Of a stretch of 42,669 nucleotides of DNA, positions 23,685-34,178 are shown piece after piece; positions within the stretch are counted from its first letter, which is position 1, and every line of letters begins with the position of its first letter. Below the pieces are notes generated by a model. The model had not been told where the DNA came from and ran no database searches. It worked only from the letters and a program-made list of their open reading frames with translations. Origin of the DNA: Candidatus Gracilibacteria bacterium S5_H10 (GTDB lineage: Bacteria; Patescibacteriota; Gracilibacteria; Absconditabacterales; Absconditicoccaceae). The stretch covers positions 1 through 42,669 of the forward strand of contig JAEHHG010000003.1 of NCBI GenBank assembly GCA_019248075.1, written 5' to 3'. The translations under genes and the position numbers were made by a program.

Positions 23685-24302
23685 TTAATGATTATATTGC
23701 TGTGTAAGGAACATATGTGCTTGATCTGCAGAAATGTCTGGTGAAAGTATCAATATTTCTGAGTTGCCGAAATGAAAATTCATTAATACGTCTTTTCGAT
23801 CCAGTCCGTAATATGTCGTGTAAAGCATTTTACCGAAATCTCCGTGCGTTGTGATCAGAATGTTTTCGTCTTTGTGTTTGTCTTGGATATATGCTAAGGC
23901 TTGTTTCGCTCTTTCCAATAATTGTGGAAACGTTTCTGCTCCTTCCGGATCGAGGAAATAGGTAATGATTTCTGATTTTATGATGTTAGGTGAGCAGAGC
24001 GGTTCTATATCTTTGATTGGTTTTCCTGTCATCATTCAAAAATCACGTTCTATGAGAATATCTAGTTTTTCTGGTGCATCTCTATTTAGTGCTTCTGTAA
24101 TTATTTTGCCTGTGGTGTATGCTCTCTGTAAGGGAGAACTATATGCTTTATCAAAAGCGATATGAGCGTTTTTTATTTTTTTTGCTAGTTGTTCAGCTTG
24201 TTCTTTTCACTTTTCTGTTAATGGCATATCGCGATGTCCGTTAAGGATACCGTTGGCATTGTCTTCGTCCTGTCCGTGTCTGATGATATAGATGTTTGTC
24301 AT
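23685..24302 (-). CDS. Histidine phosphatase (phosphoglycerate-mutase-like)
   Basis: The 205-aa product starts with the catalytic I-I-R-H-G motif (phosphohistidine His at about residue 9), has the SSPLQRAYTT helix, the G-A-E-T acid motif and the second catalytic His in T-T-H-G-D-F. This is the full set of the RHG superfamily; whether it acts as a phosphoglycerate mutase or a general phosphatase cannot be told. Two glycines are TGA, and one CGA (GLD-x-KDV) sits where Trp is common in relatives. It is a free-standing relative of the domain inserted in IleS. Confidence 0.88.
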
Positions 24303-27751: not shown

Positions 27752-30700
27752 TTATAATCTTATCTGCATTTTTGCAAGTGGTTGTTTGACCGCCATTTTA
27801 TTTTTTGATCTGACAAACAATCCAAGTGAAATTATTCTTCTTACTATTTCTATCTCTTCAAGAAGCTTTTTATCAATATATTTTTCTGATCGTAATGGCA
27901 GATGCTCGAGGTGAATAGAATTTCATTCTGTTTTTCCTTGTTGTGTGAATTTTTGTAATTCAAGATAGATATATTCACTGATAAATGGAGCGAATGATGT
28001 ACAAATTTTCAAATAATTTTGTAGGACTTCAAACAAGGTATTGTATGCTGAATGTTTATCTTGATCCATTCCTGAAGCTCGGAATCTTCTTCTTGATCTT
28101 CTGATGAATCGGTTGTTTAATTTTTCTATGAATCCCAATATGAGCTTTGCTCCGTTATCTAAGAGATACTTGTCCATCTCTTGTTCAAATTGCAATCAGA
28201 GATTGTTGAGTTCGGCCAAAATCCATTTATCCAATTCGTTGCTTATTTTTGTTGTCGGCAATTTGATGATCTCTCCAGCAGTTATATCTGTTTTTGTTCC
28301 GTAGAGTTCTTTCCAAAGATTTGCTATCTTTGTTTTGTCATCTATGATGAGAATATGTTTTCCTGCTCCCTGTTTGCATATAGTTTCATATGCAGGGATT
28401 TCTGCCTTGATCTCTACATTTTTATTTCTGTATTCTTTCATAATGTTTGCTATTTCTTCCGCTTTTTTCTTATCTGTTGTATAGATGATATCTGTCTGTG
28501 TTCTTAGAATTTTTCCTAGTTCCTGTTCTGTCTGTTTTCGTGATTTTTCTAGACAATAGACAGTAGTGTCGTCAGCAATCCATTTATCTACTGTTGCATA
28601 CGTTTCGAAAAATTTGTATGCATTTAGAATCGCTACGGTGAAATCTTTGTAAACCTGATCTACCGCTTTTTCTGAGAATCTTACTGGTTCTGCTTTGACT
28701 CCTGGTGAAGAGAGGAGATAAAGTCTGTAAGCATCTGTTCCGTATCTTCCAAAAAGATATTCTGGATCTGGATAATTTTTCAATTTTTTTGACATTTTCT
28801 TTCCGTCTTCAGCAAGAACGAGCCCATTGATGATCACGTTGTTGAAAGAATTTTTTTTCATGACAGCGTTTCCACAGACGTGCATTGTTCTGAATCGTCC
28901 TCTGGTCTGGTCCAATCCTTCGATAATGAAATCAGCAGGATAAACAAATGGTTTTGCCTTTGTGGATTCAAGATTCGAAATTCAAGATTGTCATGCATCA
29001 TGTGTCTTGGATCATGTATCTCAGGTATATCCGCATTGTCAAAATGGCATGGATCATGATTCAAATCGACAGTCCATAACTTCAGAAATCCTACGATATT
29101 TTTTTCAATCTTTATTAAATCGATAGCTGTCGACATATGGTTTATGGAGATCCATCTCAGCTTTTCTCTCGTTGTCTCGATAGCGGACGATAATATTTGT
29201 ATTGTTTGTATTGTAGTCTTGTTTTTTTGTTAAATAATCAAAATCTTTGAATGCTTTTTGAATTAATATGACTGATTCCTTATGTGTTATTGTTATTATG
29301 GTTTTTGTGGCGAATTTGTTGTTGATATCGATAGCATAACTTTTGCATCTTGATATTACATTATCTATTGATTCTCCTTCAGTGGTTAGTTTCTCATTTG
29401 TTGCTTTGCTTGTTGTTAGGTTAGCAATTCGTGGTTTGTCTTGGAGATCTGGAACAATAAGATCTGTTATTCTAAAATCAACATATAATTTTTCGTTGAT
29501 TTGGAAAAGATGCTGTTTCGAAGTATCTTGGATGTATGATTGTATTTCTTTTTTGTCTCGAAGGTCCTGATAAATTTTTTGTATTTCTTGATATTTTTTT
29601 TGGATATCTTTGATGCTATCAGAGAATTCGTTTTCTAAAAATGGTAGCACTGTCTGTAGTGATCTAGAGAGAGGTGTTACGACAATTACTCGGTCATCTT
29701 TTTTTATTGTTTTTAGATATTTACTTACTTTTTCTGCTTGTTCTTTTCATTCTTCGTTTAGATCTGTTTTGCTGTAGCTATCGTGTGTCCATGTTTCATT
29801 GTAGATAGTTCTTCAGTGTCTTAGGATTATATTTTTGGTAATATTTTGTGATCCTGTTCTCGTTCCTTGATAAATTTCTTCGAGTGTTCCACAGACGATG
29901 ATATCTTCTGGATTTTCTGTATTTTCCCGAACTGGTATAGGTGCTCATCGGTATCTATTTCTTGCAAGATTTCGGTCAGGAGCTGTTTTCAATACATCGA
30001 TAAATCTCTTTTTCACTCCTTCAGGGACAAAATCTATACTTTCTGCGTTTGGAACGGTTGTTTTATTTAATTCTGGCTCCTTGATGAATCGGCTGGTCAA
30101 AGCTTTGGAAATCAATGGCGTATCGCATCTTCGGCAATGCGGGTAGGAGTGTTCGTATGATCTTTGTCCGATAAGTTTCTTTTCTTCTTTTAGTCTTTGG
30201 ATAACATCTTTGTTTGCATCATAGACTCTGATTCATTTTCGTTCAGGTACTTCGTCTGTGAATTCTCCGTATTCGTTCACTGGCAAAAATAGCCGATCTT
30301 TGGCAAATTCTCTTGGTAAGAATTGAGCGACTGCGTTAAAATCTTCCATACCGAATGCTGGCGCGATATGTACAATTCCTGTTCCATCTTCGGTACTGAC
30401 GAATTCTCCTGGGATGATTTTGAAAAACTGATCTTTGTATTTTTGGTCTATCTTGCTGCTATTGATGTGTTGGAAGAGCGGCTCATATTTCAATCCTAGC
30501 AATCCTTCTCCTTGGATAGTTTTGATGAGGATATATTCTTCTGGATTTCTGTAATAGCTCTTTAAAAGATTCTCAGCTATGACGAAATATTCTTTTACTC
30601 CTGTATCGTAGACTACAGAGTAGCGGATATGATTTCCTATCGCCAAGAACATATTGCTCGGCAAGGTTCGTGGAGTAGTTGTCCATGCGAGTACGCTAAG

Positions 30701-31828
30701 TTTAGCTGCAGGATCCGTGTGTTCATATATTTTTTTCTCGTAGAGATAGAGGTCATAGAATTGGCTCATGATCTCCATGTCATCATCGACGATTGTATTT
30801 TCTATTTTGACAGCAAACCCTAATGTGTTGTCTGATGTAATGACTTCTGCTCGTACCATCTGCGGCAATTTTTCCGGCTCCATGAGCTTTGGTTCTCCTT
30901 CGATTTCGATTTCAAACATATTGAGATTGAATAATCCTCCGCGAAGGATCTGTTTTACATCTCCTAATGGTTTGATGGATTTTACTTTAACACCTAATTC
31001 TTCTGATATCTCTTTTTGCACTGTTTTTTCTAAAGAATCTCCTTTATCTACTTTTCCTCCTGGACAGACGTATTTTTGTCCTTTTACGCTGTAGTTCATG
31101 AAAATTTTACCGTCGCGTTTGATGATACAGTCGACGACTTGAATATATCCATCGTCAGTTGTTTCATATTTACTGAAATCAAAATTTCGTTGGTTATTTA
31201 CTTTGTCTCGACATAATGGGAATTTGATTGTGATAGCTGGATCTTGTCTAGTTTGGTATCCTTCGTTTACTTCTGCATTGGATAAAGTCGTTGCACAACT
31301 TGGACACATCCATTGCACATTGAATCATTTATATACTAGATTCTGCTTGTACATATTCTGAAATACCCGGGTTACGGATTCCATAAAATCAAGATTCATT
31401 GTATAATATGCATGATCCATGTCTGCTCGTCTTCCGATCCGATCTCAGAAAACTCTCCATTCATCGCTGGTATTGCTGACGGATTTTCTACATTCTTCGA
31501 CGAAATTTTGTACGCCGATCTTGTTTTCTATGTCTTTTTTTCCATCGATACCGAGCAGTTTTTCTACATATTTTTCTACTGGTAATCCATGACAGTCCCA
31601 TCATCGATCTCTGTTTACCTTATATCCTTTCATGGTTTTGTATCTAAGAATAGTATCTTTCATTGATCCAACCAATCCATGTCAAAAATGCGGAGTCCCT
31701 GAAGCGAATGGAGGTCCATCGTATGTGATTGATTGAAATTTTTCTGAACGTTGTTCGAGGGATTTTTCAAAAATCTTGTGCTGTTTCCAATATGCGTTAA
31801 GCTGTTGGTTCAATTCTTTCTGATTCAT
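27752..31828 (-). CDS. ileS: Isoleucyl-tRNA synthetase with inserted Nudix and histidine-phosphatase domains
   Basis: The 1358-aa product, far above the usual 950-1050, charges tRNA-Ile. Class I motifs are intact: H-F-G-H near residue 47 (Gly TGA) and K-M-S-K-K near 1010. The CP1 editing region keeps TTPWTLPSN and [12 protein letters not shown]. Between FPL and WTTTP (about residues 226-370) lies a Nudix domain with box GKVDKGD...[10 protein letters not shown]. Between the GTLEE strand and DLHKPYVD (about 660-880) lies a histidine-phosphatase domain with L-R-H-G, T-E-G-E-S and T-H-K. CGA matches invariant Trp at IGR-W, TTP-W, HC-W-RC, TS-W-F, PD-W-N, RY-W-G, DC-W-FESG, RG-W-F; CGG at SVT-W-VF (31367-31369) and IPV-W (29927-29929). 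The zinc-finger C terminus of E. coli type is absent. Confidence 0.92.
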
Positions 31829-32002
31829 GACTAAACGACTAAACGATAAAATGATCAAACGATGTTTTGTGGTTGAATAGTGAATATAGTAAATCAGCCC
31901 CTGCTTTCAAGTCCAAGGAAGAATTTTTGGGTAAATTATGTTGTATTTTTTTCTAATTTCTTTAGCCTGATTATGTCGTATTTATTTTTTTCTTTTTTTG
32001 TC

Positions 32003-32881
<879 letters not shown>

Positions 32882-33347: not shown

Positions 33348-34178
33348 ATGAATTATAAAGAAATGAAACTCATCAATCCGTTTGATGCAGAGTATCACAA
33401 ACTTTTGAAAAACATTTTGACAAAAGGTGTGCAGAAAGGTGATCGTACTGGTACCGGTACACGTAGTATATTCGGTTATCAGATGCGGTTTGATCTAAGT
33501 AAAGGATTTCCTTTGTTGACAACAAAGAGGATTCATCTTAAATCTATCATTTATGAACTACTTTGGTTTCTTAATGGAGATACCAATATTAAGTACTTGA
33601 ATGATAATGGAGTAACTATTTGGGACGAATGGGCTGATAAAAATGGCGATTTGGGACCTGTTTATGGATATCAATGGCGTCACTGGAGAACAGCTACTGG
33701 AGATGAAATTGATCAAATCCGTGAAACTATTGCTTCATTGAAAAACAATCCTGATTCCCGCCGCCATATCGTGAGTGCATGGAATGTTGGTGAATTGAAT
33801 CAGATGAAATTGCCACCATGCCATATTCTTTATCAGTTTTATGTTGCTAACGGCAGACTGAGTTGTCACATGTACATTCGCAGTTGGGATGTATTTCTTG
33901 GTGGTCCTTTCAATATTGCATCATACGCTTTATTGACAATGATGTTTGCTCAGGTTACTGGTTTACAACCTGGCGATTTTATTGTTTCAAGTGGTGATAC
34001 TCATTTGTATCTTAATCATCTTGAACAGGTAAATTTGCAACTTACCCGTGAACCTCGGATGGCACCGGTAATGAAAATCAATCCTGAAGTCAAAGATATC
34101 TTTGATTTTCATTGTGAGGATTTTGAGCTAAAAGAATATAATCCACATCCATCTATCAAAGCAGATATTTCTGTATAA
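33348..34178 (+). CDS. thyA: Thymidylate synthase, standard-code copy (horizontal transfer)
   Basis: The 276-aa product is a textbook Thy[37 protein letters not shown], catalytic Cys in L-P-P-C-H, and G-D-T-H-L-Y-L-N-H. Unlike almost every other gene here it has no TGA in frame: its 19 glycines are GGN and its seven tryptophans TGG. Arginine is mainly CGT/CGC, and CGG occurs at two conserved Arg sites (Q-M-R-F and E-P-R-M), where the host code would give Trp. The native copy 470 bases upstream uses AGA at the first of these. This points to recent acquisition from a standard-code bacterium. Confidence 0.95.

Follow-up and report, generated by a model that had tools for sequence, protein, structure and literature searches.

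We analyzed a 42,669-nucleotide stretch of DNA (the window; positions 1 to 42,669 of contig JAEHHG010000003.1, assembly GCA_019248075.1) from Candidatus Gracilibacteria bacterium S5_H10, a member of the order Absconditabacterales whose genome is available as 952 kb in 258 contigs. The subject of this work is its ileS gene, which encodes isoleucyl-tRNA synthetase (IleRS, or IleS as a gene product). The gene is one uninterrupted frame of 1358 codons when TGA is read as Gly and CGA/CGG as Trp, and this altered code is needed at 43 codons. Excerpts of a published study give the same code for Absconditabacteria (PMC8629427). The product scored 749.6 bits with the NCBIfam ileS equivalog TIGR00392, passing the cut-off of 621.4. 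A phmmer search against solved structures aligned yeast IleRS to it as four core blocks with three gaps, at residues 216–385, 675–901, and 1089–1202 of the protein P0001 (10 is subtracted to obtain the IleS numbering used here). The signatures of the family were found as HFGH, the editing motif TTPWTLP, and KMSKK, which carries Lys in place of the last Ser of KMSKS. Judged by its sequence, the open reading frame (ORF) holds a complete IleRS core plus three in-frame insertions. These are located at the base of the editing domain (J1), between the halves of the catalytic fold (J2), and before the anticodon domain (J3). A preliminary description of this DNA had claimed that a Nudix and a histidine phosphatase domain are inserted internally into an IleS that remains intact around them. 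The Pfam matches above the cut-offs, the gaps in the yeast alignment, and the equivalog score bore this out. The third insertion had been overlooked, as had the lack of the C-terminal PF19302 domain, which is present in other IleS. The features are collected below; genomes and loci of relatives are denoted by G and L numbers.

Table 1. Features of the ileS gene in the window (window coordinates; residues in IleS numbering; HP1 and HP2, first and second histidine phosphatase domains).
Feature	Coordinates	Strand	Basis and recurrence
ileS (isoleucyl-tRNA synthetase), 1358 aa + stop	27752..31828	minus	single frame; TIGR00392
IleRS core block A, residues 1-205, HxGH at 47-50	31214..31828	minus	alignment
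Insertion 1 (J1), Nudix domain, residues 206-377	30698..31213	minus	Pfam NUDIX; 38/46 other order genomes
Nudix box, residues 258-280, Glu273/Glu276/Glu277	30989..31057	minus	sequence; Glu invariant in 17 relatives
IleRS core block B, residues 378-662: editing domain, then catalytic fold resumes; TTPWTLP at 384	29843..30697	minus	
Insertion 2 (J2), histidine phosphatase HP1, residues 663-892; RHG 670-672, second His 849	29153..29842	minus	Pfam His_Phos_1; 29/41 readable order genomes
IleRS core block C, residues 893-1079, KMSKK at 1011	28592..29152	minus	
Insertion 3 (J3), degenerate second histidine phosphatase HP2, residues 1080-1196, catalytic motifs lost	28241..28591	minus	hhalign, relatives
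Anticodon-binding domain, C-terminal end of protein; no PF19302-type domain	27755..28240	minus	Pfam

The first insertion matched Pfam NUDIX (E 4.4e-7) with 30.4 bits in the full protein and 33.8 bits for the insert alone (cut-off 21.1). As compared with the consensus box GX5EX7REUXEEXGU, Asp264 replaces the first Glu and Lys272 replaces Arg, exactly as first described, while Glu273, Glu276, and Glu277 are kept. The metal-ligand Glu residues showed no variation among the 17 aligned relatives (alignment A3). HP1 at J2 matched Pfam His_Phos_1 (E 4.1e-14, 53–56 bits, above the cut-off). Its branch-1 catalytic set is complete: R670, H671, and G672, the second Arg (R722), and the second His (H849), so that both histidines noticed earlier are in place. 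Residue 789 is Asp, where most relatives have Glu. The Arg-His pair, the second Arg, and the second His were invariant in 24 chosen sequences (alignment A5), and a simple motif count found RH(G/A) plus the second His in 73 of the 77 J2 inserts, RH(G/A) being absent from L054, L075 (RHE), L096, and L185. In view of the conserved residues, the Nudix and HP1 domains are likely to be catalytically competent. HP1 is not essential, because its first motif is lost in G017 and the domain is missing altogether in G018–G021.

The third insertion, HP2, is of a different quality. A Pfam scan of the window HP2 alone found no family. Profile comparison with hhalign matched it to the HP2 profile of its relatives (99.7%) and to HP1-type phosphatases (99.6%), and all 16 relatives chosen for the profile match His_Phos_1. 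The J3 inserts of many relatives show MRHA...SP..R..TA...SH. In the window, the RHG/RHA motif and the second His are both gone, leaving HP2 without the features of a branch-1 enzyme. The same simple motif count gave RH(G/A) plus the second His in 47 of 58 J3 inserts, the motifs being lost in several relatives as well. In the order, all 33 members with a histidine phosphatase (HP) at J3 are without the C-terminal PF19302 domain. G023 is the sole member that has neither, and its ileS reaches the contig end. We considered whether HP2 substitutes for the lost domain. This is disfavored, since outside the order but within the class Gracilibacteria, all 24 with an HP at J3 retain the C-terminal domain. 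Because the two coexist there, one historical event is the simpler account.

Structure prediction, which the preliminary description had proposed as a check, gave a divided answer. In the AlphaFold2 model of residues 1–1195, the mean predicted local distance difference test (pLDDT) score was 73; the core was modeled confidently and HP1 fairly well. The modeled core superposed on the IleRS structure 8wnd_B with a Z score of 35.7 (646 residues, 2.3 Å). The Nudix domain came out at low confidence, in models built without the insert sequences of relatives. The structural matches shown for the 1195-residue model (Foldseek, VIA) were synthetases throughout and are uninformative on the inserts; the assignment of the insert folds rests on sequence rather than on the model.

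We surveyed ileS across related genomes. The tally for the order comprises 46 other genomes with a readable ileS (the window, G008, and G029 are excluded), those of G003, G004, G034, and G038 each being read as two pieces. Nudix at J1 was found in 38 of 46, HP at J2 in 29 of the 41 readable, and HP at J3 in 33 of 42. Where an insert is absent in the order, the site is a short loop of 5 to 28 residues, except in G001, which carries an acetyltransferase (GNAT) at J1. A tandem pair of HPs occupies J2 in G028. An ileS-model match was obtained in 49/49 order genomes and was above the cut-off in 31/49; this model also matches ValS, and the inserts fragment its matches. Among 70 class genomes beyond the order, a non-random set with 10 chosen for Nudix hits and 60 to spread over families, Nudix at J1 occurred in 10/68, HP at J2 in 32/68, and HP at J3 in 24/66. 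In the phylum, a hand count gave at least 57 of 379 genomes (that of the window included) with a match spanning the left IleS flank into the HP, i.e., running from position ≤9 to ≥234 of 248. Beyond the class, Nudix at J1 was seen in G518 and G520. Fifteen of 80 named IleS loci have HP at J2; they belong to Patescibacteria lineages, phylum-less bins, and one contig labeled Spirochaetia (L088). Nudix was found at J1 in none of those with a readable J1. The HP of L088 groups with that of Wolfebacteria L161 (support 100/95), so the L088 contig is probably misbinned. A search of viral contigs returned a single match, confined to the IleS flank.

These counts bear on the suspicion that the inserts are errors of assembly or annotation, or segments spliced out as an intron or intein. 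Nothing in the window points to this; the ileS genes of several relatives do break at contig ends. The frame is continuous, Rfam at gathering thresholds found nothing but tRNAs in the window, and the same architecture recurs in numerous other assemblies, among them that of G042, which is a single contig. We give this explanation practically no credence, and the survey likewise disfavors misassembly.

Truly split ileS genes were observed in G035 (L073:2291-6624) and G037 (L075:2174-8375), where the gene-in-pieces IleRS is encoded by two genes with the break after FESGAMPFGQEHY. Between the halves lie a pyrimidine 5'-nucleotidase (UMPH-1) gene, or DUF559 and DUF4357 genes. An intron was rejected at these sites: with the Rfam threshold relaxed, the matches were weak and snoRNA- or miRNA-like, none of them to an intron family, and other ORFs separate the halves. 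We also rejected the DUF559 domain of G162 IleS as a counterpart at the split site, since it lies in a different loop.

Phylogenetic trees were then compared for the core and for the inserts. In the core tree of 116 IleS sequences, which takes 13 chosen of the 80 named loci, the presence of Nudix and that of HP at J3 each require a minimum of 6 changes on starred branches, and the presence of HP at J2 a minimum of 11. The HP tree of 150 domains (IleS inserts and nine free genes) separated J2 from J3 lineages, with 7 changes between the sites as compared with a shuffled mean of 54. In the Nudix tree of 64 domains, the J1 cassettes of the order formed one clade (95/99). G162 and G188 contribute J1 cassettes to this clade as well, and it further contains free genes and the Nudix inserted in UvrA. 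The J1 Nudix domains of most other families fell outside it; the tree has long branches and calls for caution. G022 carries a free Nudix–Nudix tandem (L188:2948-4384), the first domain of which lies in the IleS J1 clade; its own IleS is without Nudix.

Cassettes have been swapped between species within the order. G005 and G006 share an identity of 0.88 in the core, and of 0.39 and 0.40 in Nudix and HP1, respectively. The genus, which was picked for testing after the identities had been seen, is monophyletic in the core tree (Shimodaira–Hasegawa-like approximate likelihood ratio test, SH-aLRT, 100), and its monophyly is rejected in the Nudix tree (log-likelihood difference 102, p of the approximately unbiased test 8e-36).

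The ratio of nonsynonymous to synonymous substitution rates (dN/dS, Nei–Gojobori) was calculated for the window against G006, as a rough measure because dS is often above 1 and saturated. It was 0.08 for Nudix, 0.10 for HP1, 0.36 for HP2, and 0.03–0.11 for the core blocks. Over twelve pairs, the values for HP2 ranged from 0.03 to 0.36, the two pairs that involve the window giving 0.36 and 0.28, and G024/G025 giving 0.30. Where values were high, for the Nudix of G045/G047 (0.49) and the HP1 of G024/G025 (0.44), the identity of the cassettes is low. At the sequence level, Nudix and HP1 look maintained, and the window HP2 looks relaxed. On a constructive-neutral account, the domains landed by chance in permissive loops and were kept without benefit, since clean excision is rare. 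The retention of the inactive-looking HP2, the patchy presence of the inserts, the transposase and DUF559 domains among the passengers, and the intervening genes that split ileS in G035 and G037 would all fit it. The low dN/dS of Nudix and HP1 and the conservation of catalytic residues over wide distances do not, and we regard this account as quite improbable.

The same cassettes occur in other large proteins, and other passengers occur in the same synthetases. Besides Nudix and HP, IleS and ValS carry serine hydrolase, DUF559, HAD, GNAT, and IS200-like transposase domains. The IleS of G162 (L178:500-5746, 1749 aa) contains Nudix, serine hydrolase, HP, and DUF559; that of G165 (L182:3201-8996, 1932 aa) contains Nudix, serine hydrolase, and HP; that of G066 (L282:2667-7382, 1572 aa) has a histidine phosphatase domain at each of three sites; and that of G055 (L222:2523-6455) has an in-frame IS200-like transposase (Y1_Tnp, 5.4e-13) within the editing domain. 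ValS carries HP at the site equivalent to J2 in L265–L271, L279, and L280. Additional ValS passengers are HAD and a serine hydrolase in L267, a serine hydrolase in L270, and two HPs in L280. Nudix is inserted in the UvrA of G021 (L190:170-4072) and is also carried by the LeuS of G056 and G264. The UvrB of G056 (L195:2061-5435), which lies outside the set of 277 genomes searched below, has an inserted HP and a serine hydrolase, and its HP adjoins the HP of the IleS of the same genome in the tree (SH-aLRT 94). The shorter HP fusions scanned were end-to-end with VTT, 2-hydroxyacid dehydrogenase, or Nudix, with one more of MFS type from the IleS-flank/HP search; a free Nudix–HP fusion is present in G518 (L275).

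IleS and ValS are sister editing synthetases. In an HP tree that included ValS, UvrB, and other fusions (98 rows), the ValS copies were scattered, with 5 changes, at least 2 of them on starred branches; this tree came from a quick search over a chosen subset of inserts and has many weak forks. Because of this scatter, the HP appears to have been acquired more than once. The HP (and Nudix) might be coupled to the chemistry of the host, acting on AMP, pyrophosphate adducts, diadenosine polyphosphates (ApnA), or misactivated adenylates, or dephosphorylating a controller of IleRS/ValRS. That HP is found at two sites of IleS and at the corresponding one of ValS, as if acquired repeatedly in the latter, is consistent with such a coupling, as is its presence in 37/38 Nudix-bearing and 47/78 Nudix-less IleS of the core-tree set. 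This association of Nudix and HP was gone after kinship correction (median p 1), in a weak test with few informative pairs. Moreover, Nudix also resides in UvrA and LeuS, HP also in UvrB, and unrelated passengers share the same synthetases. We consider coupling possible but doubtful. Its ApnA version, in which the synthetase would clean up or sense its own ApnA or damaged nucleotides in the manner of mycobacterial MutT1, had been proposed in the preliminary description. It may hold, and its specificity is weakened, since the Nudix lineage of the order is also found in UvrA and free genes and the two domains are gained and lost separately.

The reading we favor, with moderate confidence, is that large essential enzymes harbor working hydrolases as passengers in their permissive loops, the IleRS of the window being a scaffold with an active Nudix and HP1 and a relic HP2. 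Compact alpha/beta hydrolases would have been inserted in frame at J1, J2, and J3, loops tolerant of compact domains, and the synthetase would work normally despite them. Nudix and HP1 would fold independently and, with their catalytic residues kept, hydrolyze small nucleotide or phosphate compounds, presumably house-cleaning metabolites. HP2 would be catalytically dead and persist as a structural relic. Tethering may explain the retention of the passengers through steady expression, stability, and, for the HP, perhaps closeness to a synthetase by-product. The architecture and its wide recurrence, the conservation of catalytic residues, the low dN/dS, the loss and swapping of cassettes, and the loss of the HP2 motifs are direct observations.

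Several findings weigh against functional passengers. The HP is decayed or cleanly absent in several lineages, and therefore some passengers may be near-neutral. The pLDDT of the Nudix was 39 for the insert alone and mostly below 60 in the long model, and HP2 was modeled at low confidence. In an HP-family search of 277 phylum genomes, the resolved hosts of at least 860 aa among the matches listed were IleS (28 genomes, 27 of them identified by an IleS-flank match rather than by individual annotation) or ValS (4) only. Passengers alone do not explain this bias, which is the strongest hint of a role beyond generic house-cleaning and also speaks for the coupling discussed above; the counts are inflated by common descent of the J2 insertion.

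Extending the idea of passenger hydrolases in permissive loops, we tentatively propose that Patescibacteria use IleS and ValS above all, and also LeuS, UvrA, and UvrB, as landing pads, with fixed surface loops where circulating catalytic cassettes are inserted, recombined between species, retired, and replaced. If true, essential genes would double as carriers of an accessory enzyme pool in very small genomes. Aminoacyl-tRNA synthetases rank with the most conserved enzymes known, and it is unexpected that entire enzymes, to all appearance active, have entered their catalytic body repeatedly and at the same loops. As relatives with the same core have, lack, or have exchanged individual passengers, they offer a natural experiment on the reasons for which proteins accept domain insertions. 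They also make it testable whether a tethered phosphatase removes a phosphorylated by-product or regulator of IleRS/ValRS. Insert-bearing genes are easily misread as chimeras by annotation, more so under an altered code.

Elsewhere in the window, a free-standing histidine phosphatase gene (23685-24302) is separated from ileS by four ORFs. Similar free HP genes are found near ileS in G005, G006, and G010; the inserted HPs are not closely related to them. Two adjacent thymidylate synthase frames of unequal length were observed at 31862-32881 and 33348-34178.

Finally, we compared the window IleS with known systems. Its catalytic, editing, and anticodon parts align with yeast IleRS (8wnd) and the type 2 IleRS of Priestia megaterium (8c8v), from which it differs by the three in-frame inserted domains and, as in the order members with an HP at J3, by the absence of the C-terminal domain. 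Enzymes encoded by genes in pieces, split by a homing endonuclease gene, are known; they resemble the split ileS of G035 and G037, and not that of the window. Mycobacterial MutT1, as described in the excerpts of PMC11784022, combines an N-terminal Nudix and a C-terminal RHG phosphatase in one small enzyme. The same two families are present in the window IleS as separate insertions 285 IleRS residues apart rather than as adjacent domains, and the likeness, as judged from the sequences, is one of domain families only. Among the papers listed by searches of the open literature, none reports a Nudix or histidine phosphatase inside IleS in its title or abstract opening; full texts and subscription papers lay outside this scope. 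The NCBIfam entry NF040702 (ileS_w_GNAT), compared by its name and description, is a curated precedent for an extra enzyme in IleS. The passenger there is an N-acetyltransferase, to be compared with the GNAT at J1 of G001. Extra enzymes in IleS are thus not wholly new, while this set of inserts, their recurrence, and their swapping appear to be.

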